A stretch of DNA of 24,852 nt from a virus. Of this stretch, positions 1-13,445 are shown piece by piece. The DNA lies in the IMG/VR virus record IMGVR_UViG_3300043469_000382, positions 1-24,852 of that record; one strand, 5' to 3'. Each line of letters opens with the position of its first letter. Position 1 is the stretch's first letter. The position numbers were made by a program, and so were the translations under genes. The notes beneath the pieces were generated by a model. The model was not told the DNA's origin and ran no database searches. It saw only the letters and a list, made by a program, of their open reading frames with translations.

Positions 1-427
1 GGATGCGGACGGAGGGATTCAACTCCCTCGCCCTGCCGATGATGCGAAGGTAGGATTCGGCTGCGACGTGGTGCGCTTCGTCGATGACGAGCAGATCCAC
101 AGGAGGCATGGTGGCGAGGTTGTCTTCCCTGGCTAGGGTCTGAACCATCGCAAAGGTGACGCCATCCGACCAGCGTTTGCGGTCGGCGGCGTAGATGTCG
201 GTCGGCGTGTCGGCGTCGATGCGCCGGTAGGTCGCCCGGTTCTGGGCTACCAGTTCGTCGCGGTGTTGGAGGACGATGGTCTTGCCCTTCCCGGCGGCCT
301 TGATGGCGGCGGAAAGCATGACGGTCTTGCCCGCCCCAGTAGGGGCGACGCCGAGCGTATTGCCCTTGTCGTTGAGGGCGTAGTTGATCTTGTGGACGAA
401 GTCCACCTGCCTAGGTCGGAGCTTCAT
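1..427 (-). CDS. DEAD/DEAH-box superfamily II helicase, N-terminal part (truncated by window edge)
   Basis: The first 142 residues of an ATP-dependent superfamily II helicase are visible; the rest lies beyond the left edge. A Walker A motif APTGAGKT sits at residues 28-35, motif Ia-like VLQHRDEL at about 52-59, and a DEAH box (VIDEAHH) at 114-120. The N-terminal RPRQ resembles the Q-motif region of type III restriction/Ssl2-type helicases. In phages this family unwinds DNA or Holliday-type junctions during replication and recombination, which fits its place downstream of the Sak4-like and single-strand-binding genes. The ATG at 427 is the first start after the non-coding gap and has no Shine-Dalgarno sequence. 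Motifs are seen directly; the exact substrate is inference. Confidence 0.85.
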   Translation of the reverse strand, partial: MKLRPRQVDFVHKINYALNDKGNTLGVAPTGAGKTVMLSAAIKAAGKGKTIVLQHRDELVAQNRATYRRIDADTPTDIYAADRKRWSDGVTFAMVQTLAREDNLATMPPVDLLVIDEAHHVAAESYLRIIGRARELNPSVRI

Positions 428-489
428 CGAATCAAAAGAACCGTCCGAGAGAAACCATCGTTGAGAGGGCCGAGCGGTGAAAGGGAAGA

Positions 490-519
490 CTCCCCTGTGC
501 CTTTCGGTAGGGAGGGGAG
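490..519 (-). terminator. GC-rich hairpin, possible weak terminator upstream of the helicase gene
   Basis: CTCCCCT at 490-496 pairs with AGGGGAG at 513-519, with an inner CC/GG pair closing a GAAA loop on the minus strand. On that strand the stem is followed by TCTTCCCTTT, a poor U-tract. It could attenuate transcription into the helicase gene. It is called on structure only. Confidence 0.3.
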
Positions 520-674
520 CCGTTGTAGTTTCCCGCTAGAGCGGAAAAAGGGGGGCGGCGGGAGAGGCAAACCCAACATCTGCGTCACCGCTGCGAGCGT
601 GGACGGAAGTGTCTGGACCGACGGCCAGGTTGTCATCCCGCTCTCACCCTGTGTTTTAAAGAGCAAAAGGACAA

Positions 675-736
675 GCGTCCCTTGAGAAGATGCTGACATG
701 TTATTCAGATTTGTCAGCAACTTTCTCAAGGGACGC
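675..736. repeat. 62-bp two-stem inverted repeat (cruciform/hairpin-capable)
   Basis: The outer arms GCGTCCCTTGAGAA (675-688) and TTCTCAAGGGACGC (723-736) are perfect 14-base complements. Inside them GCTGACA (692-698) and TGTCAGC (712-718) form a perfect 7-bp stem around a 13-base loop. The repeat begins 16 bases past the stop codon of the single-strand-binding gene. It lacks a following U-run on either strand, so it is not a standard intrinsic terminator. A replication origin element, RNase III-type processing site or protein-binding site are alternatives. Confidence 0.85.
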
Positions 737-751
737 CTGGATGGTATCCGA

Positions 752-1345
752 TTAGAACGGATTGGAGGAAGACGGAGTCTTCACCCAACCCGGAGCGGCG
801 GTCGGAGTCGGAGCGGAGAAGGCCGCCGCGCGAGCCTGCTCGACGACGCCAGACTGGCCGGCGACCAGCTTCTGGAAGTCGCGGTAGCCACCGGAGGCGG
901 CGTTGGGCGACAGCCACTCACCGACCTTGTTCTTGTCGGCGTAGGCCGGGTCGGTGTTCTTCTCGACCTTGACCTTGATGGCGACGCGCTGGCCGTCCAT
1001 GAAGTTCATGATCGCGAGGGTGTCCCTGCCGTTGAACGCCTCGTAGGACTTCGGGTCGGAGGGCTTGAAGTGACCGCTAGACTCGAAGATGCGGGTGATG
1101 GACGTGATGCCCATCTTGCGCCACTTCTCGCCGTTGCGGTCATCCTGGACGTCGGGGATCATGTCGAAGACCTTGCGGCCTTCGTGTTCGCCGCCGATGA
1201 CCGTGAGCGTCACCGGGTAGTAGGTGCCGCCGCTGGACTTCGACTGCTTCGCGCCGCCGATGGTGATCAACGCCCACGCCAGGGTGCCGTTGGGGATGAG
1301 TTCCGGGGCCGAGCCGGCGCCGGAGGTGGGGGAGAACATGCTCAT
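752..1345 (-). CDS. DUF669-type phage single-stranded DNA-binding protein
   Basis: This 197-aa protein has the pattern of the DUF669 family that accompanies Sak4-like ATPases in phages: IPNGTLAWALITIGG at about 17-31, a SSGGTYYPVTLTVIGG strand pair, then EHEGRKVFDMI. The family is thought to be an OB-fold single-strand-binding protein acting in recombination and replication. The C-terminus is a flexible Ala/Pro/Thr-rich tail ending in Pro-Phe (SSSNPF). That recalls the terminal Phe of SSB tails but lacks their acidic residues. It starts 8 bases after the Sak4-like stop codon, with no Shine-Dalgarno sequence; ATG at 1339 is an alternative start. The pairing with the upstream ATPase is strong support. 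Binding activity is family knowledge, not shown here. Confidence 0.72.
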   Translation of the reverse strand: MSMFSPTSGAGSAPELIPNGTLAWALITIGGAKQSKSSGGTYYPVTLTVIGGEHEGRKVFDMIPDVQDDRNGEKWRKMGITSITRIFESSGHFKPSDPKSYEAFNGRDTLAIMNFMDGQRVAIKVKVEKNTDPAYADKNKVGEWLSPNAASGGYRDFQKLVAGQSGVVEQARAAAFSAPTPTAAPGWVKTPSSSNPF

Positions 1346-1353
1346 ATTATGTA

Positions 1354-2223
1354 TTACTTGGTGTTGGTATTGGGGGTGGAAGCGGGAATGGTGCGGACGA
1401 GGTTGGTATCGACGCGCTTGCCGAGGCGGATCTTCTTGATGAGCGCACCGAGGTCCGGAGCTTCAAGCAGGTCGAGGCGACCGGAGCGGTCTTTGGCGGG
1501 GTAGCCCCACGGATTCTGCTGCTGGCAACAGAAGGCGCGGTACATCGAGCCGTCCTCGTTCTTGAAGTTCTGGAGGGTGATCACCTGGTCGAAGATGCCA
1601 GGAAGTTCGCGGCCAGTCTTGGAACCCTCAATCTGGGGATTCCACGACACGCGCTTGAGGTCGTCGATTTCCTGGTCGAGGATACCCGACAGGATGATGG
1701 ACTTGTTGGAGTGCTGGAGGTGGGTCAGCCAGCGAATCATCTCTTGGCCGAGCAGTCCGTAGGCACCGCGGGTGTCCGGCTTGCCTTCGCGGTTGAACGT
1801 CTCCGGCTGGACCTTCGCCCACTTGAAGCACTCGCGACCAGCGACCGTAATGGAGTCGATGAAGATCGTGTCGTACTTGTTGAGGTCGATGTTGGAGAAG
1901 GCAGCCGAGACAGCCTCATGGACTGGCTTGGAGTACGGACCGGTGGCGTCGCTAGGGTCGTGGCCGCCGACGTACAGAGCCAGGGCGCGGGCGATTTCCC
2001 ACGGATACTTGCCGAAGGACTGGGCGACATCGCGGACGTCGATGACGTCTGCCGGCCAGTCCTGGATGGCGAGGGTGCCGGCTTCCAGGTCCACGAAGAG
2101 GGTGGTCTTCGGGTCGAGGGTGCGAGCCTGCGTGGTCTTGCCCACGCCGGCGGGGCCGAACAGGGCGATGTTGATCTTGGGTACGGCCTTGAGGCGGTCG
2201 TCAGCCTTGATGATTTTGATCAT
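1354..2223 (-). CDS. Sak4-like RecA-fold ATPase (AAA_24), recombination mediator/annealase
   Basis: This 289-aa P-loop ATPase has Walker A GPAGVGKTT at residues 23-31 and a Walker B-like TIFIDS at 119-124. Phage Sak4 proteins are short RecA/Rad51-core ATPases that promote single-strand annealing together with their cognate single-strand-binding protein, which is encoded immediately downstream here. Residues past about 270 are a Pro/Thr/Asn-rich tail. Start choice: ATG at 2223 follows a CCCAACCCAACC leader after the upstream stop codon, with no Shine-Dalgarno sequence. A general AAA_24 NTP-binding protein is the conservative name; the Sak4 role is inferred from length, motifs and neighbour. 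Confidence 0.8.
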   Translation of the reverse strand: MIKIIKADDRLKAVPKINIALFGPAGVGKTTQARTLDPKTTLFVDLEAGTLAIQDWPADVIDVRDVAQSFGKYPWEIARALALYVGGHDPSDATGPYSKPVHEAVSAAFSNIDLNKYDTIFIDSITVAGRECFKWAKVQPETFNREGKPDTRGAYGLLGQEMIRWLTHLQHSNKSIILSGILDQEIDDLKRVSWNPQIEGSKTGRELPGIFDQVITLQNFKNEDGSMYRAFCCQQQNPWGYPAKDRSGRLDLLEAPDLGALIKKIRLGKRVDTNLVRTIPASTPNTNTK

Positions 2224-2240
2224 GTGGTTGGGTTGGGAGA

Positions 2241-2687
2241 TTAGGAAACGAAGGTGAACTTGGGTTCGCTGTACTTGACGGTGCGGGCGTCGAGCAGCTT
2301 GTCGCGGAGGGTGTTGTCGGTGACGGACTGGAAGGACTTCTCCGGAACGGAGAACTCAATCTTGAACATGCGCTGAACCTGGTCGTAGGGCAGGGAGCGG
2401 GCGACCAGTTCAAGCTTGGGGCTGTCCCACTTGACGGTGGCGCGAACCTCGGACGTGAGCTTGACGCCCTCGGACTCAAAGGTGTGCTGGCCGTGGGTCT
2501 TGCCTTCGTCCTCCAGAGCGGACTTGATCACGTCGGCGAACCGGGTGGTCAGTTCCGACTGGATGTCGGCGAGTCGAGCCTTGGCGGCATCGACGATGTT
2601 GTTCTGGATGGAGGCGGCGTCGCGGAGTTCCGCGACGTCCATCTCCGAGAGAGCCTTAACGGCTGCTGCGGACTTTTTGTTTTTCAT
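2241..2687 (-). CDS. Conserved phage protein of the recombination neighbourhood, unknown function
   Basis: This 148-aa protein has a helical, likely coiled-coil first half (about 15-65) and a mixed second half with the pattern VKWDSPKLELVARSL at about 85-99, then SVPEKSFQSV and a closing PKFTF. I associate this layout (helical N-half, WD..KL segment, final P.F.. strand) with unnamed phage proteins encoded beside annealases and exonucleases, but I cannot assign an activity. Its N-terminus overlaps the end of the HTH gene by 32 bases in another frame. The start ATG at 2687 directly follows CCCCCAACACCG and lacks a Shine-Dalgarno sequence. A Gam-like nuclease inhibitor was considered because of the coiled coil, without firm support. 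Confidence 0.75.
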   Translation of the reverse strand: MKNKKSAAAVKALSEMDVAELRDAASIQNNIVDAAKARLADIQSELTTRFADVIKSALEDEGKTHGQHTFESEGVKLTSEVRATVKWDSPKLELVARSLPYDQVQRMFKIEFSVPEKSFQSVTDNTLRDKLLDARTVKYSEPKFTFVS

Positions 2688-2943
2688 CGGTGTTGGGGGA
2701 AAGCTTCTTCTCGGCGTTGGGGGCGGAGTTTAGCAAGAAAGAGTTAAGGTCAATGACACGGCCGTCGCGCTTGGCAAGGTCCATCAACTGGACGATGCGA
2801 TGCGCCGGGAGGCTGTCGCGTTCAGACCACTTCTCGATGGTCTTGATCGAGAGGGCGTAGCCGGCGGCGTTGAGTTTACGCCAGAGATTGATGCGACCGC
2901 CGAAGTAGGCGACTAGCTTTTTAATGTCGAGTTTGATGTCCAC
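2656..2943 (-). CDS. Cro/YdaS-like helix-turn-helix DNA-binding protein, probable early regulator
   Basis: With the GTG at 2943 the protein is 95 aa. The stretch LVAYFGGRINLWRKLNAAGY followed by LSIKTIEKWSERDSLPAHRI has the pattern of Cro/YdaS-type repressors: a GG-R/N-L-W-R-KL helix pair, recognition-helix S.KTI.KW, and a following helix that includes the LPAHR pattern. The C-terminal third is charged and probably disordered. It diverges from the only plus-strand gene across a region with an operator-like inverted repeat, so control of that divergent promoter is likely but inferred. The start is uncertain: two in-frame GTG codons at 3000 and 2997 would add about 19 residues. I prefer 2943 because it follows the CCCAACACC leader seen at neighbouring genes. 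Confidence 0.72.
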   Translation of the reverse strand: MDIKLDIKKLVAYFGGRINLWRKLNAAGYALSIKTIEKWSERDSLPAHRIVQLMDLAKRDGRVIDLNSFLLNSAPNAEKKLSPNTDEKQKVRSSR

Positions 2944-3029
2944 GGTGTTGGGTCCGATGAGAGGGTTGTGCCTACTGGGTGTAGGGTCGTCAATCACCAC
3001 TTTGTTTTTACTATGCTTTTTTTACAGGC

Positions 3030-5789: not shown

Positions 5790-8700
5790 TTACTTCTTGG
5801 GTTTTTCTACGCCAGTCAGACCCTCCAGGATGGCGTCGCTGAAGTCCCGGTCGCGCATGAGGTAGTTAGCCCCAGCACCTAGCACAGGATTAACCGCAGA
5901 AGCACCACCAACAACGACAGGATTAAGACCAGTACGCTGTACCGACTTCAAAGCGTTGTAGTTAGCGCGGTCGGAGTCTCCGCCCTTTTCGAGGGCAGTT
6001 CCGGCAGCGACAAGGGCTTTGCCAGCCGCTTCGGGAATCGGCCCCATCGGCAATTGCTTGCGAACCAAGATGCGTGACAGGTATTCAAACTTCTTGCCGA
6101 ACATACCGGCGTAAGAAGCGGCGTCCAAGACTTGGATTTCCGGATCTTTTTCCATCCATTCGTCTCCGGAGTCGGATGGGAAGATGGAAGCCACAAGCAT
6201 CTTCGTAGCCATAGATGCGATGACGGTCATCGAACCGCCAGCGACAAGAGGCATCAAGTACCTCACGCGGTCGAGAGCGGTAATCTGTTCGGCAGGAGTA
6301 GAGCGTTTGAAAGCACCAAGCGCGCTGTCGTACATACGATCCTTCACCAACTGTGAGTAGGCGTAGGAGTAGTTCATCAACTGCATCAGCATCTTGCCCC
6401 AGATGCTGTCAGAGCCTTCGGTCTTCATCGACGCATCGGTGCTGATTGCAAGGCCGGTGCTAGTACGCTGAAGCGCCTGGCGATACATGGCAGCCTCTCG
6501 GCTGTTGCCCATAACCGCAGCTTCATAGTCGGCATCGTTCATTCCTTGCAGGGATGCGACGAAAGCAGCGAAAGCGGCGTGATCTGCGTCAGCGACGCCG
6601 ATTTCCCTCATCATCGCGCGAGCCGAAGTCTCTCCGGATTCGCTGACACCTGGGATCATGCTGAAAACTTTCTGCAACGGCGAGTTTCCGTTGAAAGTGC
6701 GGGCTACGTTGAGAAGATGTCCTCTGGCGATAGCCATCGAGGTGATGACTTTCGCACGTTCAGACTGCTCCATTAGGTTTGCCTTCAGCACTCGCTGGGT
6801 GAGCCACTTTGCCAGAGGGCTTCCCTCTTCTTCCATGTCGGCATTGAAGTCCCAATGGCTGTCCTGGGCGATGCGATCAAGTTCGACGTGGGTAAGGCCA
6901 AGAGTCTCGGCTAGCGCGGTATCCATAGACCTGGCGAATTCTTTTCGGTTCTTGTAGTGCTTACGGACAAGGTTTGAATCATTAACAGAACGACCAAGTT
7001 CCTTGATGAAGTTGCCCCAGGTACGAACCACGGCCTCAAGCGCGAGCTTGGGGCTTCCGGTACGGATGCCGTACGACACAGGTTCAAGGAAGAGGTTGTT
7101 GATATAGCTCAACCCAAGGTATCCGGATACGACGACGAAGTTAGCCCAGTCCATGAACTTGGCTTCAAAGCCTTCAAGCTTGTTGGCGGTAACATCGAGC
7201 GACTGGCGAATTAGCTTCTCGATATGCTTACGCTCCGCATCCGTGACTCCGTCCTTGGCTAGTTGAACCACCATTTCGCCAAGTTTATTTCCATTCTCAC
7301 CGAACACGCGGGCAAGCTCTGCTTTCTTTACGGCGGAATGGACGTAGCGGATGACGGTCTTGTCGATGTCGTCATCCTGGAATTCGTCGGCAAGGGCTGC
7401 TTCTTCTGCCGTGAACATCCGAGGGTCTGCATGATCTGGTGCTTTGGCAGACTTGTCGCTGGAGTCATTAAGGGTAATTTCGTCGATGCGTCCGTTCTGC
7501 GCGCGCCATGCCCAGTTCTCCGCCATCTTCTGGTAGTGAGCGTCGTCCTTTGCGTCATGCTCCGCCTGTAGCGCGGCAATCTTTTCGTCAGCGTTGTCTC
7601 TGGCGTCCTGCTGATATTCGGCATCCGGCTTGACTCGGCGGCCGGCCTTCTGGTCTTGGGCTTTCTTCCGGGCAGCCTCGGCGTCAACTCCTGCATTGAT
7701 TGCGTCGATAGCCTCATTCAGAAGTCGAAGGTCGCGCTTCTGGTACATCTCCTTGGCGACTTCATAGAAACGCTGGATGTTCTCCTGGATCTTCTTGTTA
7801 GACCAGATGCGAGGGAAGTATCCTTCGCCGGCGTCGCCGATATCGATCCCGGCTTTACGCTGATACTCAAGAAGTTCCTTCATCATCTGTCGGAATTCAA
7901 GTACAGCTTTGCCCATCTCTCCAGGGGGCAGAGGTTCAAGGCCGATGACAGCACGACGGAATTGCTTATCCCAAGCCTTACGCTGGGCTTCGTTCATCTT
8001 CGCGAATTCCGTGGCGAAGCGGTTTAGGATGTTGGAATACTTGTTGGCGAACTGGGTGCGGATCTGCTTGATGCGCTGCGGAATCGAATTCCGTACGGCT
8101 TCCGTGACAGGCTTTCCGTCCGGACCGATGGTCGTTACTTCGGCGTCAGCATTCGGGCCGGAGCGGGTGAAGATAAGGTTAGCAATCTTCCGCATCGTGG
8201 CGGAATTAGGATACTTGTCGGAGTATTCCCACAACTTATCTGCGCGGCTGTCCAGGAAGTGCTTGGCGATGGCGGCCGGAGTCTTGGCGATAGCCTTGGC
8301 AAGCTGCCACACCTGCTTCATGTCGTACTTGCTCATCTTCCCAGCCATGCTCTTCGCCCACGAACCGAACTTCATGCCAGTCTTGACGATCAACTTGGAG
8401 ATGCGGTACGCCCAGGCGGAAAGCTGCTGCGGGCTGATTGAATTGGCGCGGTAGTTAGGCTTGTCGTCCGGACCAAGGACATCGGTTTCCCAGGCGTCCA
8501 ATGCCTTCTTCACACGCTCCGCAAGACCGGCAGGGTCGCCATTCTTTGCCTCTTCAAGGGCTGCTCGTACCTTCTTTTGCTGCGGAGACTCTACGTCTCC
8601 ACGGAGATCTTCTCCGACAAAACGCTTTGAGAGAGGAACCACATTGCCTTCATCGTCTTTTACGACCTGGTCGGCACTCTTGATGTCTGCGTTGTTTCCG

Positions 8701-11700
8701 ACGTAGTAAATCTTTTCACCGTTTTCCAGGTTAACGACAACAGGAGAATTCGGTGTAGCCCTTACTCCGAACAAATCAGAAGCCATCTTTTCTCTCGTCG
8801 TGTTAATTTCACGAGGGTTTCCAGACAAGCGAAGGAACACGGCCTTAACCTCCGGCTTACCTCCGACAAAGTCTTCCTTTGCAAGTGCTTCAAGTTTGGA
8901 GGCCTGCTCCGGATATCCAGCCTTTCGCAGTTCAGAAGCGTAATCTTCAAGAGAGTCTACGGCAGACTGGAGGCTGTCCACGGCATTTGTATCGAACCTA
9001 ATGTCGCCTACGTTGGTAGAATCATACACCATACCAGGTGCGTCTTCAGGGATGGTTGCGAATATTTCGTTAGCCTTTGCGACCAAGTCTGAAATAGACC
9101 TTCCTTCATCACCCATAGTCTCGGAGTATTCCTGCGCCGCTTCCTTATTCGTGGTGAAAGAAGGTGCGCCGCGAGAAACGCCGGCATTAGACCCAGTCCG
9201 ATTTGGGTCAAACTTATTGAATCCGCCTGTAGGCGTTCCGTGGTAAACAGGGCCGATGGTGAAACCTTGTTCTGCCGCAGCAGCCTTCAGTTCTTCATCC
9301 GTAGGCGTTTTTTCCGCCGTGGCTTCTACGTCGATCACAACTTTTCGGACATCACCGACCTGCTCTTGGTTTGTGTCGTCAGTTTCTTCCGTTGCTTCAA
9401 CGTCGATGACGCTGTCTTTTGCCTTTTTCTCCGCCAGTCTTGCGGCTTCAACTTCCGAATCGTATTTCTTTCGGTTTCTTTCCGCGTAATATTTCTGCAT
9501 GTAGTCCGTAGCCATCCACTTGTAGGCTTTGTTAAGTACGCTTCCAGGTGGGTATGCCTTCGCCGCTTCCTCGTAAATCTTTTCTGCGGCCTGGTATTCT
9601 TCCATCGTCTTTGGTTCTGGCTTTCCTTCCATTCCGATAGGCTTCGGAGCGTTACGAGCTTTAGTTTCCTCTTCGGCGTACGGATCGTAGAGGGGCTTGG
9701 ATTCCCTCCAGTCATCTCCCTTCCTGCTTCTATCCCAGATCTTTCCATTAGGCGAGATATGGCCGACAATCTTTCCGTTCTGATCGACGACTACAGGTCC
9801 GGTTCCTTTGTTTACCTTGCTGGCAAAATCCTTTGCCGCCTCGGTGCGACCAACGTTAACGCTCAATCCTAGACCCTGGACGCCAGATGCGAACTGTTGC
9901 CATTTTTCAGACGCCTCTTCAAGCGAACCTACCGGGAAACTTTCACCATCGATCCTGATGTAAAGTTGGGGCTTGAGCTGAATTGGGTTGATCTTGGGAG
10001 CAGGCTTGCCCTCAAGTTCGGCAAGTTTCAGCTTCAGCTTATCAGCCTGCATCTGCGATCTTTCATCTCCAAACTCTTCAAGGTTCTTGATTCGTTCGCG
10101 CAGCTTTTCAGCCTTCTTGTTTGCAGGCTGAACCTCGCTTTCCTTTGAAGCCTTGGCTTTGAGGTTCTTGTCCCTGGCCATCTTCATTGCTTCCTTGATG
10201 AACGGACGAACTTTCTCGCCGAATTCCTCGACCAGTCTAGCCGTGATGACTCCGACGTTCTTCACGCCTCTTGCGGACATATACGCAATCTTCGTGGCAA
10301 GCGCCAGAAGGACATCAGGTCCGGGTGAGTTTGCCCTGGTAACGTCGAAGATGGATTGTCCGTCTTTCAGTCCAAGCGTTCTGTTAGCCCAAGACTCAAG
10401 TTTTGAAATCTGTCCTTCATCCAACATCGCAACGTCGTTGGAGATGGCCGGATCTACTTCGACCGAAGCGGAGGGGCTTGGGTCGTAGTCGTACTGCTCA
10501 TCCGCTGCCATCGGGTCGATAGGCGCGACGTTCGGATCTACCGGGGTGTTAGGTTTTGAGGCCGGCTGACCGGATAGGATGCGTTCAATCTTCTCCTTGT
10601 TCTGGGCGATGCGGTCATCTAGGTTCTTGGTCTTTCGACCTTCCTTGATGGCCTTCTCGCGCGCCTTCTGGTCGTTGATGACCTTGTTGTGCAGTTGGCG
10701 GACGTCCTGCTTGAGGTTGCGGTTGAGGGCGTCGAAGCGGCGGTCGTTGCGAGGATCTGCGGCGACAGGCGTACCAGACGGCTGGACCGGCGGGGTAGGC
10801 GCGCCGGACTTCTCCTTGCCCTTGATGGCTTCCAGTCCTTGGCGAAGACCTTCGACGATAGAAGGACGCTTCGGCTTTGCCTCTGGAGCGGGGGTAGCAG
10901 GGGCGGGAGTGGTAGGAGCAGGGGTAGGGGCAGGAGCGGGCGTAGCGTCAGCCGTAGGGGCTGGAGCAGGGGTAGGAGCAGGTGCAGGGGTTGCCTGCGG
11001 AGCGGGAGTGGGGGCAGGGGTTGCGTCAGCCTGGGGTGCAGGAGCAGGGGCTGCTTGTGCGGTAGGTGCAGGCGTAGTCTGCGGGGCAGGGGCGGCTTGA
11101 GGAGCAGGAGTAGGCTGGGCGGCCGGAGCGGGAGTAGACTGGGCGGCTGGAGCCTGGTCGCCGAGAAGCTGGGCGATGTTGGCTTTGATCTTCTCAATCT
11201 GCTTCTCCTTCTTTTCCGTCTTGTAGTTCTTCGCCTTCATATCGGCCAAGACCTGCTGTTGTTCTAGGAGGAACTGGTAGGCGCGGCGAAGTTTGCTCTT
11301 CGTCTCACGATCTAGGTCGTCGAAGCGAGCGTCGTCGCGAGGATTGCCTCCGTCGTAGGCAGGGGCAGGGGTGGCTGCCGGTGCAGGGGTGGCTGCCGGG
11401 GGTGGCGTAGGACCAGGAGGGACAGGGGTAGGCGAGGGAGCAGGGGCAGGAGCGGGGGTAGACTGGGCGGCAGGAGCAGGAGCGGCGGCGGGGGTGGGCG
11501 TCGGCGCAGGGGCAGGTGGCTTGGCAGCAGCAGCAGCTTCGGCATTAATGATATCTACCGCACTAGGTCCGGCAGGACCGGCCTTGGCCGCTTCGATCTG
11601 CGCGGTGATGTCAGCAATCTGTGTAGTGGCGGCGGTGTAAGCTTCGCTTGCCGCTTTGTTGGCTGCCGAAGCAGCAGCGACCGCTGAATAATTAGCCTGG

Positions 11701-13445
11701 TTTTCGGGATTGTCCTTCAATGCCGCTTCGGCAACTTCAAGGTCAAACGCCGCTTTTGCGACGTCAGATTCCGCTTTAGATTGAGCTTCCTTTGCCGCAT
11801 CCAGTTGTTGCTCTAGCGCGGTCGTATCGACTGCCGGTGCGGCAGCAGGGGCAGGGGCAGGGGTTGCGTTTGTAGCGGTTGCTGGGGCGGCCGGAGCAGG
11901 GGTGGGAGTCGCAGGAGCAGGCGCGGGGGTAGCCGGAGCGGGGGCAGGAGGAACGACTTCGCCGGCGATAGGAGCAGCAGGAGCGGCAGGCGTAGGGGCT
12001 GGAGCGGTCGCCGCAGGAGCTGGCGTAGGGGCGGTAGGAGCAGGAGTCGGAGCTGCCTGTGCGGCAGGGGCTGCCGGAGCGGGTTGTCCGCGAACCGCCT
12101 GGTATCCTTTCTTCAGAGCGGTTCCGCCAGCCTTCATCGTAACGTCGCTTGCGCCGCCGGCCAAGCCGCCGCCGACAGCAGAGAATCCGACCTGCGTTCC
12201 GCTGAATTCTTTTCCAGACCCAGCGGCGATATCAGCGGCTTGCGACGCTGCGCTTACGACGGCTTCTTCAGCACCTTCCTTCAACGCTTCGACGGCAATA
12301 GGAACGCCATGCTTGAGGATGAATTGCACCCCCTTGTTCTTGCCAACAGCACGAACCGAACCACTTCCAGGGATGAGGCTGAATCCACCAGTTACAGCAC
12401 CTTCGGCGGCTGCGGCCGCAAGAGCGGTACGATCAGCAAGCGAAAGGGCTTCACGGAAAGCTTTGGGATCCTTGTTGCGAAGCGCGATGACGGCATCTTC
12501 GTCGTTGGCATCAACGCCCTGGGCTTGAAGCCATTCCTTGAAATTCTGCGCCTTGTTTCCGACGTAAGCATCTCGACCAGCCGTACCACCTTGTACGGCA
12601 GCAGTACCTCCATAAACCAAAGGACCGGCTGTTCCTCCAGAAAGATAGGTGATTCCGGCTTTTCCAATATCAATAAGTCCAGACTTCAGACTAGGCCAGG
12701 CAGACTCAAGACCCATGTTGATGCCGACTTCAGCCGCGTTAGTTCCAAAGTCTCCCTTTAGGATTTTTGCTCCGGCTACAATGTCTTCATTCTGGGCTGC
12801 CTTTTGAAACGCCTGGTAGTCCGCGCTTCGACCCTCGATGCCGGCCATAGTCTTCTCCATCTCGTCCTTACGCTTCTTGGCCGCGACGATTTGCTCGCGT
12901 ACCGAAGCAAGGTTCTTGTAGGCCGTTTCAAGCAGATCGGCAGAGCGAGGCTTGAGCGGCGCCGGACCTTTACGAGGAGGACGCGGACCGATAAGTCCTC
13001 CATCCTTGGGCGTAAGTCTGGCGATTTCTTGCTGAAGGTCATGCTCTCTTGCGACCAGGTCAAAGAATTCGTTATCAGCAATAGCCGAATCCTTACCATA
13101 CCATCCGGACAGGAGGGAATTCCACGCGCTTTCCCATTGACCGACAGGCTGGGCTTGCGGATCGAGAGACTGGCCGAGCTGACGCACACCACCACCGATG
13201 CCTCGCATCTGCGACTGGGGAAGCACCTGTTGGTTCGGCGTGGCTACCGCGAACGCATCGGCGACCGACGGCGCGGGGACGACCGGAGCAGGCTGCTCTA
13301 CGGCGACGACTGGCTGGGTGACGACAGGCTGCTGGACAACCTGTTCGGGAACGGATGCAGTCTTGTCCTTCTCCCAGAATTTTACTTTTTCTACCGGGGG
13401 CTGATTTGCCTGTACAGGTTTATCCTTGTCCCAGAAATTGCTCAT
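5790..13445 (-). CDS. Giant modular internal virion/ejection protein (T7 gp16 position) with ADP-ribosyltransferase-type domain
   Basis: This 2551-aa protein sits last in the internal-protein series, where T7 has gp16. Layout: two FW(D/E)KDK motifs at 4-9 and 23-28; charged coiled-coil region about 100-230; Gly/Ala-rich, partly hydrophobic region about 240-450; Pro/Ala linker about 451-538; coiled coil about 540-635; linker about 638-695; helical module (RFDDLDRE) about 697-763; linker about 763-856; second copy of that module (RFDALNRN) about 893-959; charged regions; ADP-ribosyltransferase-type domain about 1395-1610; then a long helical C-terminal part with GEGYFPRIW (W1881) and hydrophobic segments about 2096-2125 and 2396-2422. 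I find no lytic transglycosylase motif like that of T7 gp16. It is likely packaged in the head and ejected into the host. The start overlaps the preceding stop codon (TAATG). Confidence 0.85.
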   Translation of the reverse strand: MSNFWDKDKPVQANQPPVEKVKFWEKDKTASVPEQVVQQPVVTQPVVAVEQPAPVVPAPSVADAFAVATPNQQVLPQSQMRGIGGGVRQLGQSLDPQAQPVGQWESAWNSLLSGWYGKDSAIADNEFFDLVAREHDLQQEIARLTPKDGGLIGPRPPRKGPAPLKPRSADLLETAYKNLASVREQIVAAKKRKDEMEKTMAGIEGRSADYQAFQKAAQNEDIVAGAKILKGDFGTNAAEVGINMGLESAWPSLKSGLIDIGKAGITYLSGGTAGPLVYGGTAAVQGGTAGRDAYVGNKAQNFKEWLQAQGVDANDEDAVIALRNKDPKAFREALSLADRTALAAAAAEGAVTGGFSLIPGSGSVRAVGKNKGVQFILKHGVPIAVEALKEGAEEAVVSAASQAADIAAGSGKEFSGTQVGFSAVGGGLAGGASDVTMKAGGTALKKGYQAVRGQPAPAAPAAQAAPTPAPTAPTPAPAATAPAPTPAAPAAPIAGEVVPPAPAPATPAPAPATPTPAPAAPATATNATPAPAPAAAPAVDTTALEQQLDAAKEAQSKAESDVAKAAFDLEVAEAALKDNPENQANYSAVAAASAANKAASEAYTAATTQIADITAQIEAAKAGPAGPSAVDIINAEAAAAAKPPAPAPTPTPAAAPAPAAQSTPAPAPAPSPTPVPPGPTPPPAATPAPAATPAPAYDGGNPRDDARFDDLDRETKSKLRRAYQFLLEQQQVLADMKAKNYKTEKKEKQIEKIKANIAQLLGDQAPAAQSTPAPAAQPTPAPQAAPAPQTTPAPTAQAAPAPAPQADATPAPTPAPQATPAPAPTPAPAPTADATPAPAPTPAPTTPAPATPAPEAKPKRPSIVEGLRQGLEAIKGKEKSGAPTPPVQPSGTPVAADPRNDRRFDALNRNLKQDVRQLHNKVINDQKAREKAIKEGRKTKNLDDRIAQNKEKIERILSGQPASKPNTPVDPNVAPIDPMAADEQYDYDPSPSASVEVDPAISNDVAMLDEGQISKLESWANRTLGLKDGQSIFDVTRANSPGPDVLLALATKIAYMSARGVKNVGVITARLVEEFGEKVRPFIKEAMKMARDKNLKAKASKESEVQPANKKAEKLRERIKNLEEFGDERSQMQADKLKLKLAELEGKPAPKINPIQLKPQLYIRIDGESFPVGSLEEASEKWQQFASGVQGLGLSVNVGRTEAAKDFASKVNKGTGPVVVDQNGKIVGHISPNGKIWDRSRKGDDWRESKPLYDPYAEEETKARNAPKPIGMEGKPEPKTMEEYQAAEKIYEEAAKAYPPGSVLNKAYKWMATDYMQKYYAERNRKKYDSEVEAARLAEKKAKDSVIDVEATEETDDTNQEQVGDVRKVVIDVEATAEKTPTDEELKAAAAEQGFTIGPVYHGTPTGGFNKFDPNRTGSNAGVSRGAPSFTTNKEAAQEYSETMGDEGRSISDLVAKANEIFATIPEDAPGMVYDSTNVGDIRFDTNAVDSLQSAVDSLEDYASELRKAGYPEQASKLEALAKEDFVGGKPEVKAVFLRLSGNPREINTTREKMASDLFGVRATPNSPVVVNLENGEKIYYVGNNADIKSADQVVKDDEGNVVPLSKRFVGEDLRGDVESPQQKKVRAALEEAKNGDPAGLAERVKKALDAWETDVLGPDDKPNYRANSISPQQLSAWAYRISKLIVKTGMKFGSWAKSMAGKMSKYDMKQVWQLAKAIAKTPAAIAKHFLDSRADKLWEYSDKYPNSATMRKIANLIFTRSGPNADAEVTTIGPDGKPVTEAVRNSIPQRIKQIRTQFANKYSNILNRFATEFAKMNEAQRKAWDKQFRRAVIGLEPLPPGEMGKAVLEFRQMMKELLEYQRKAGIDIGDAGEGYFPRIWSNKKIQENIQRFYEVAKEMYQKRDLRLLNEAIDAINAGVDAEAARKKAQDQKAGRRVKPDAEYQQDARDNADEKIAALQAEHDAKDDAHYQKMAENWAWRAQNGRIDEITLNDSSDKSAKAPDHADPRMFTAEEAALADEFQDDDIDKTVIRYVHSAVKKAELARVFGENGNKLGEMVVQLAKDGVTDAERKHIEKLIRQSLDVTANKLEGFEAKFMDWANFVVVSGYLGLSYINNLFLEPVSYGIRTGSPKLALEAVVRTWGNFIKELGRSVNDSNLVRKHYKNRKEFARSMDTALAETLGLTHVELDRIAQDSHWDFNADMEEEGSPLAKWLTQRVLKANLMEQSERAKVITSMAIARGHLLNVARTFNGNSPLQKVFSMIPGVSESGETSARAMMREIGVADADHAAFAAFVASLQGMNDADYEAAVMGNSREAAMYRQALQRTSTGLAISTDASMKTEGSDSIWGKMLMQLMNYSYAYSQLVKDRMYDSALGAFKRSTPAEQITALDRVRYLMPLVAGGSMTVIASMATKMLVASIFPSDSGDEWMEKDPEIQVLDAASYAGMFGKKFEYLSRILVRKQLPMGPIPEAAGKALVAAGTALEKGGDSDRANYNALKSVQRTGLNPVVVGGASAVNPVLGAGANYLMRDRDFSDAILEGLTGVEKPKK
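8617..9262 (-). other. ADP-ribosyltransferase-type (ART-PolyVal-like) domain within the giant virion protein
   Basis: Residues about 1395-1610 carry VYHGTPTGGFNKFDPNRTG (His1402), then GAPSFTTNKEAAQEYSETMG, a strand VKAVFLRLSGNPREI, and finally IKSADQVVKDDEGNVVPLS. The HGT...F..FD, the S-F-T...A..Y segment and the closing IKSAD-V--D--GN-VPLS are hallmarks of ART domains in phage polyvalent and MuF-type proteins. Candidate catalytic residues of an H-Y-E type site are His1402 and the Tyr of QEY; I cannot place the Glu with certainty. Activity is inferred. Confidence 0.72.
10568..10765 (-). repeat. Helical module, copy 2, in the giant virion protein
   Basis: This copy encodes DPRNDRRFDALNRNLKQDVR, a Lys-rich helix and an ending ILSGQ, the partner of the copy at 11155-11355. 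The protein similarity is clear but the DNA has diverged, so the duplication is not recent. Confidence 0.75.
10877..11155 (-). repeat. Pro/Ala-rich low-complexity linker (third)
   Basis: The DNA repeats short GCAGGGGTAGGAGC-type units on the plus strand, encoding APAPTPAP-type sequence on the minus strand. It joins the two helical modules and probably forms an extended flexible chain. Confidence 0.8.
11155..11355 (-). repeat. Helical module, copy 1, in the giant virion protein
   Basis: This copy encodes NPRDDARFDDLDRETKSKLR followed by a Gln/Lys-rich helix and an ending LLGDQ. It aligns with a second copy about 200 residues later: (D/N)PR.D.RFD.L.R..K...R, a conserved Lys-Thr, I...K..I...L.GQ/DQ. 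Pro/Ala linkers flank both. Confidence 0.75.
11360..11530 (-). repeat. Pro/Ala-rich low-complexity linker (second)
   Basis: This linker encodes PTPTPAAAPAPAAQSTPAPA-type sequence between the coiled coil and helical module copy 1, with the same base bias and unit pattern as the other linkers. Confidence 0.8.
11832..12092 (-). repeat. Pro/Ala-rich low-complexity linker (first)
   Basis: About 87 residues of Pro, Ala and Thr separate the N-terminal Gly/Ala-rich region from the coiled coil. A similar shorter tract occurs near the C-terminus of the neighbouring 466-aa protein (about 13560-13670). Confidence 0.8.

Follow-up and report, generated by a model that had tools for sequence, protein, structure and literature searches.

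Early transcripts of phages such as T7 carry hairpins that are processed by RNase III. Other phage RNAs pair with messages: as outlined in PMC12197685, the c4 antisense RNA of P1 and P7 has complementary stretches, presumed to be in its loops, that base-pair with a phage mRNA near its ribosome-binding site, and the same source has lambda PreS acting on the host dnaN and OOP serving as an antisense RNA to cII.

Here we analyse a phage hairpin, termed H, whose main value is as a pointer to a well-supported structured RNA that lies outside Rfam and comes with a testable antisense hypothesis. Relatives retain the hairpin in structure, and immediately ahead of a helicase gene they also retain the RNA, whose pairs show extensive compensatory change. 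The window is the whole stretch of DNA analysed, 24,852 nucleotides from IMG/VR record IMGVR_UViG_3300043469_000382. H occupies a 324-bp gap between the stop codon of the gene at 752-1345 (- strand) and the helicase start at 427 (- strand), and all of its neighbouring genes are on the - strand. In the order of transcription, the features of the gap and its downstream flank are:

672..739, - strand: hairpin H, with outer arms 672-688/723-739 and inner arms 687-698/712-723
652..671, - strand: T-rich, U-tract-like linker after H
545..651, - strand: structured RNA, with closing helix P0 (645-649/553-557), arm A (595-643), arm B (558-591) and a short U-rich tail
428..544, - strand: variable stretch from the RNA to the helicase start, whose hairpin modules come and go among relatives
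2..427, - strand: 5' part of the helicase gene (phrog_16), following the structured RNA

An earlier note, made from the sequence alone, had reported an inverted repeat at 675-736. The repeat is real and reaches slightly past those ends. Its outer arms are 17 nt long and 94% complementary, and nested within them are inner arms of 12 nt that are 92% complementary, giving a nearly continuous duplex of about 25 bp with small mismatches. As RNA its folding energy was -42.7 kcal/mol. Dinucleotide shuffles gave -20.4 +/- 3.0 (z -7.4), and none of 200 equalled it, so that H forms a stable stem-loop in the transcript, as an intrinsic terminator does. The accompanying claim that neither side has a U-run holds for the + strand and fails for the - strand, the coding strand of the flanking genes, where the stem is followed by TTTTGCTCTTTAAAAC; the longer sequence after H on this strand is CTTTTGCTCTTT. 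The window's own tract is interrupted by CC and G (CCTTTTGCTCTTT).

Gene assignments in the earlier note fared unevenly. The helicase label of the downstream gene is supported by phrog_16. The gene at 752-1345 had been labelled as encoding a single-strand-binding protein, which we could not support: its product matches phrog_2300, a group of unknown function, and no Pfam family, and a search for its relatives in a phage collection gave no match. Elsewhere, in its major head protein, the phage shares 47% identity with Microcystis phage Mae-Yong1326-1 and 40% with a Rhizobium phage, and the window has at 5790-13445 (- strand) an open frame of 2551 amino acids with long Pro/Ala-rich repeats.

Relatives were fetched from IMG/VR by the protein of gene 752-1345, yielding 58 loci. 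The gap to the helicase was delimited in 45 of 55 loci in addition to the window, exceeding 1 kb in two of the 45 (L053 and L054), and its length among near relatives ranged over 210-593. The earlier note held that the proposal should fall if the element were not conserved as a hairpin. A hairpin was found in the interval from the stop codon to the next block of conservation in all 26 distinct near-clade versions (the window included), with z scores weak to moderate in some; in several relatives they were weak (-1.7 to -3), by a simple dinucleotide-edge shuffle. Sequence turnover in the gap is high, and the outer stems are wholly different between clades. Covariation within H was weak in the window's clade (1/27 pairs changed on both sides, eight distinct sequences) and moderate in the L026-L031 clade, which has unrelated outer-stem sequence (4/32 pairs, a level reached by 3/500 shuffles). 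The coding strand gave the more stable fold in 19 of the 26 versions, and the stems of several relatives depend on G-U pairs, which are possible only in RNA of the gene strand. After the hairpin, a TCTTT, TTCTT or TTTTT tract was present in 32 of 38 distinct linkers, compared with 2.3% of random 24-mers. Since the structure is kept and this type of tract follows it, H is probably best described as an RNA-level boundary hairpin, either a terminator or a processing site.

Which of the two it may be can be weighed further. H could be nothing more than an intrinsic terminator, not specially connected with the downstream RNA, a reading that we put a little short of an even chance. A GC-rich stem with a T-rich tract is indeed found in many relatives (for example L143 and L106), but the stem of H is far longer than termination needs, and the helicase would then require a promoter in the short linker; a simple sigma-70 scan of positions 1-3000 gave none. 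Alternatively H may be a site for a double-strand RNase of the RNase III type, cutting a polycistronic message and so releasing the RNA downstream of H. The length and near continuity of the duplex would suit such an enzyme, as would the position of the RNA between two genes on a uniformly oriented strand; we nevertheless rate this specific assignment as rather unlikely. A putative RNA-processing role for H is part of our best explanation.

The earlier note had also offered a DNA role for H, as an origin of replication or a recombination or packaging site, and had proposed looking for a GC-skew inflection. In four of four long records the cumulative GC-skew extremes were not at H; in two of these the maximum was about 2.3-2.5 kb away. 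The inner core of H, GCTGAC-N15-GTCAGC, is common to many relatives at fixed spacing, and 12 of 20 records have exactly one copy of it, a pattern that a protein-binding dyad could produce, but the core is missing from some relatives that still have a hairpin in the gap, and the G-U pairs of the stems are valid only for coding-strand RNA. We therefore reject a replication origin, find a packaging site without support, and consider any DNA element here very improbable.

Open frames of about 63-69 codons cross the hairpin place in four relatives (L033:5615-, L037:3364-, L043:5603- and L115:2605-), and three of the four finish in the conserved linker, of TTCTTT(T)TAA type. H might accordingly be viewed as the remnant of a decayed small gene whose codons form the core palindrome. 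The peptides are alike, with 27-44 identical residues of 63-64, but in most comparisons changes are not in excess at third positions, the L037 frame gave no match in PHROG, and phages without the frame have hairpins at the same place; we regard such an origin as quite unlikely.

Directly downstream of H lies the structured RNA, which the earlier note overlooked and which is conserved with compensatory change. RNAalifold, unaided, gave the same fold of a closing helix and two arms, and 21 of the 33 pairs that it predicted had changed on both sides. In the curated structure, 95.6% of cells were paired and 22 of 33 pairs had changed on both sides among 24 distinct sequences. The covariation score was 0.485, compared with 0.204 for shuffles (0/500), and fell to 0.04-0.09 when partners were slid. 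Both apical loops are invariant:

617..624, - strand: apical loop of arm A, CCGUCGGU, invariant in 24/24 A2 sequences
572..578, - strand: apical loop of arm B, UGUUGGG, invariant in 24/24 A2 sequences and complementary to CCCAACA

Frames that run through the RNA in the near clade were considered as a conserved protein and rejected, because the conserved nucleotides fall in differing frames between clades and the base pairs covary. No Rfam 15 family matched the 545-651 stretch at gathering score. Below gathering score, at E<=5, there were microRNA and lncRNA matches only, and we rejected the microRNA matches as generic hairpin matches. In the titles and abstract openings of open papers we recognised no description of the RNA, which is a statement about those parts of the literature and not a claim of absence from print. 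With direct covariation support and no place in Rfam 15, the RNA is thus an addition to the structured RNAs of a widespread environmental phage group.

We surveyed the distribution of the RNA with a covariance model, R1, which scored 117.7 bits in the window. R1 matched 40 of the 41 loci L003-L043 plus the window (L036 ends before the RNA, and L017 is cut off); at E<=0.01 it had no match in L044-L060 or L069. The RNA was single-copy in 11 of 15 whole records. At the same threshold R1 was found in 65 of 80 helicase loci, always 5' of the helicase, some of these loci being on contigs used to build the model and hence not independent; four more matched at E 0.013. A viral scan by sequence pattern returned 33 stretches, only eight of them with an R1 match at E<=0.01, while the pattern scan of GTDB returned six, none of which matched R1. 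A scan of GTDB with a primase/polymerase-like protein gave no relative.

The end of the RNA lay 2-16 nt from the helicase start codon in 11 of the 14 loci measured; in other lineages 117, 284 or 318 nt of variable sequence intervened. Where equivalents of the 428-544 stretch could be compared pairwise (L039/L040, L006/L004, L023/L034), the hairpin modules that had been gained or lost end in pyrimidine-rich tracts. The same modules recur before the helicase in phages whose backbones differ. L143, L146 and L147 have, upstream of the helicase, an apparently reduced RNA that lacks arm B and is not matched by R1; TCCA follows it in L143 and L146.

Its location raises the question of whether the RNA acts in cis as the helicase 5' leader, as an autoregulatory binding site or a riboswitch-like element. 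H would then serve the upstream gene as an ordinary terminator, and the leader motifs described below would be unrelated. Wherever the RNA was found, it preceded the helicase, and the short distance to the start codon in most measured loci is what such a leader would show. The long variable intervals of the other lineages fit poorly, however, and sequences complementary to the RNA loops rank highest among the leader motifs of other genes. We consider a purely cis-acting leader unlikely, if less so than the decayed gene.

Twelve distant sequences have a T-arm-like hairpin, GUCGG-UUCCANN-CCGGC, which competes with the reading of GUCGGU as a loop, and in the distant group the GUCGG stretch may, on this predicted fold, be paired in a stem instead. 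Distant relatives such as L104, L106, L130 and L141 carry an invariant TCGGTTCCA..CCG stretch resembling a tRNA T-arm. The fold does not agree with a tRNA-like RNA, in which the T-arm would stand beside the 3' strand of the acceptor stem; here arm B intervenes before the closing helix. After the stop of the 752-1345 homologue in L044-L050 and L059 there is a different two-arm structure, whose first loop (of TTGTGTGG type) is complementary to CCACACA/CACACA just downstream, in a pseudoknot-like arrangement before the next start codon.

Motifs beside gene starts were counted in leaders, defined as the 25 nt before the first ATG, with starts taken mechanically (the first ATG after a stop) and uncurated, and with leaders differing by six or fewer of the 25 bases merged. 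AGGAGG was not enriched in leaders, so the genes here appear mostly to lack Shine-Dalgarno motifs. Instead, CCCAAC ranked first in enrichment among all hexamers of the 221 distinct leaders from the near clade (26 versus 2.07 expected, p 1.6e-20). The top two hexamers in 124 distant leaders were AACCGA (22 versus 0.82 expected) and ACCGAC (25 versus 1.88); ACCGAC was not enriched in near leaders (5 versus 3.4). None of these three hexamers was enriched in 105 leaders of phages without the RNA. The RNA loops GUUGGG and GUCGGU are complementary to the near CCCAAC and the distant AACCGA, respectively. When hexamers were scanned across the whole RNA, the strongest enriched complements in near phages fell in loop B, and those in distant phages in the GUCGGUU stretch, followed by loop B. 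A third lineage, without an R1 match, had AACACA in 7 of 65 leaders (0.58 expected), and its RNA after the same gene, the homologue of 752-1345, has a GUGUGU stretch.

Motif-bearing genes are concentrated around the RNA: CCCAAC or CCAACA preceded 22 of 110 genes within 8 kb of it but only 4 of 181 genes farther away. CCCAAC was in leaders of 17 of 165 gene families, and motif-bearing families include a Sak4-like protein, a Cas4-type exonuclease, a primase/polymerase-like protein and a DNA methyltransferase. Two sites in the window, both in gene leaders, are proposed to pair with loop B:

2227..2237, - strand: two copies of CCCAAC that overlap, before the Sak4-like gene (start 2223); CCCAAC or CCAACA in 26/33 family members
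2691..2697, - strand: CCCAACA, before the gene with its start at 2687; 13/24 family members

In a per-gene test of leaders against their shuffles, with the loops of each clade typed as a consensus and not read per locus, complementarity was above shuffles for the Sak4-like gene and the gene starting at 2687, and little or no more than shuffles for gene 752-1345. Two further nulls addressed the RNA itself. Dinucleotide-shuffled RNAs, made by a simple dinucleotide-edge shuffle, reached the observed top-three sum in 98/5000 trials for near and 18/5000 for distant phages, and random windows of the same contigs did so in 124/2452 and 35/1920. Because these nulls are moderate, we treat loop-leader pairing as a well-motivated hypothesis and not as a demonstration.

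Judged from sequence, the loop-leader complementarity suggests a multi-target antisense RNA resembling c4 of phage P1. We give about even odds to the joint reading, in which H would bound an early mRNA and the loops of the 545-651 RNA would pair with early-gene leaders. H would then be a hairpin of the early transcript (- strand) and not a DNA element. It would close the mRNA of gene 752-1345, either in the manner of an intrinsic terminator or as a processing hairpin for a double-strand RNase, and would thereby bound the separate structured RNA at 545-651 (- strand) on its 5' side. With the transcript ended or cut at H, the structured RNA would accumulate, and its loops could pair with CCCAAC or ACCGAC beside the start codons of early recombination and replication genes. 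Such pairing would most likely block translation of those genes late in the early phase, much as c4 antisense RNA blocks its own target in P1 and P7. The structured RNA may also act in cis on the helicase.

A bolder version can be entertained, though we hold it somewhat less probable than the joint reading: an undescribed RNA family may act in trans as a global switch, its GUYGG-core loops pairing with CCRAC that abuts the starts of early genes lacking Shine-Dalgarno motifs, with loop and leader motifs having changed together across lineages. The matched pairs in such a switch would be CCCAAC/UGUUGGG, AACCGAC/GUCGGUU and perhaps, in the third lineage, AACACAC/GUGUGUU. If loop-leader pairing is true, one phage RNA would control several Shine-Dalgarno-less genes through occupation of a shared start-codon motif, a simple and testable scheme of early-gene shut-off.

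Several known systems bear comparison. Intrinsic (Rho-independent) terminators are alike in that, on the coding strand, a T-rich tract comes after the stem; H differs in its long two-part stem, its loop of 13-15 nt and the window's interrupted tract. RNase III hairpins of the T7 type resemble H in their long duplex, in small internal mismatches and in their place between early genes on one strand, cleavage of H being putative. PreS and OOP of lambda are likened to the RNA by function only, as phage small RNAs that act by base pairing, a mode proposed here. From the available description, the closest working analogue is c4 of P1/P7. Rfam 15 reported no family for the stretch, c4 included if it has an entry there, and the RNA is accordingly not filed as a c4 member. 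Both RNAs are phage-encoded and structured, with loops complementary to start regions; complementarity around candidate target start codons is present here with moderate significance, the distant GUCGGU being perhaps paired. As described, c4 targets the ant mRNA, whereas the targets proposed here are several early genes.
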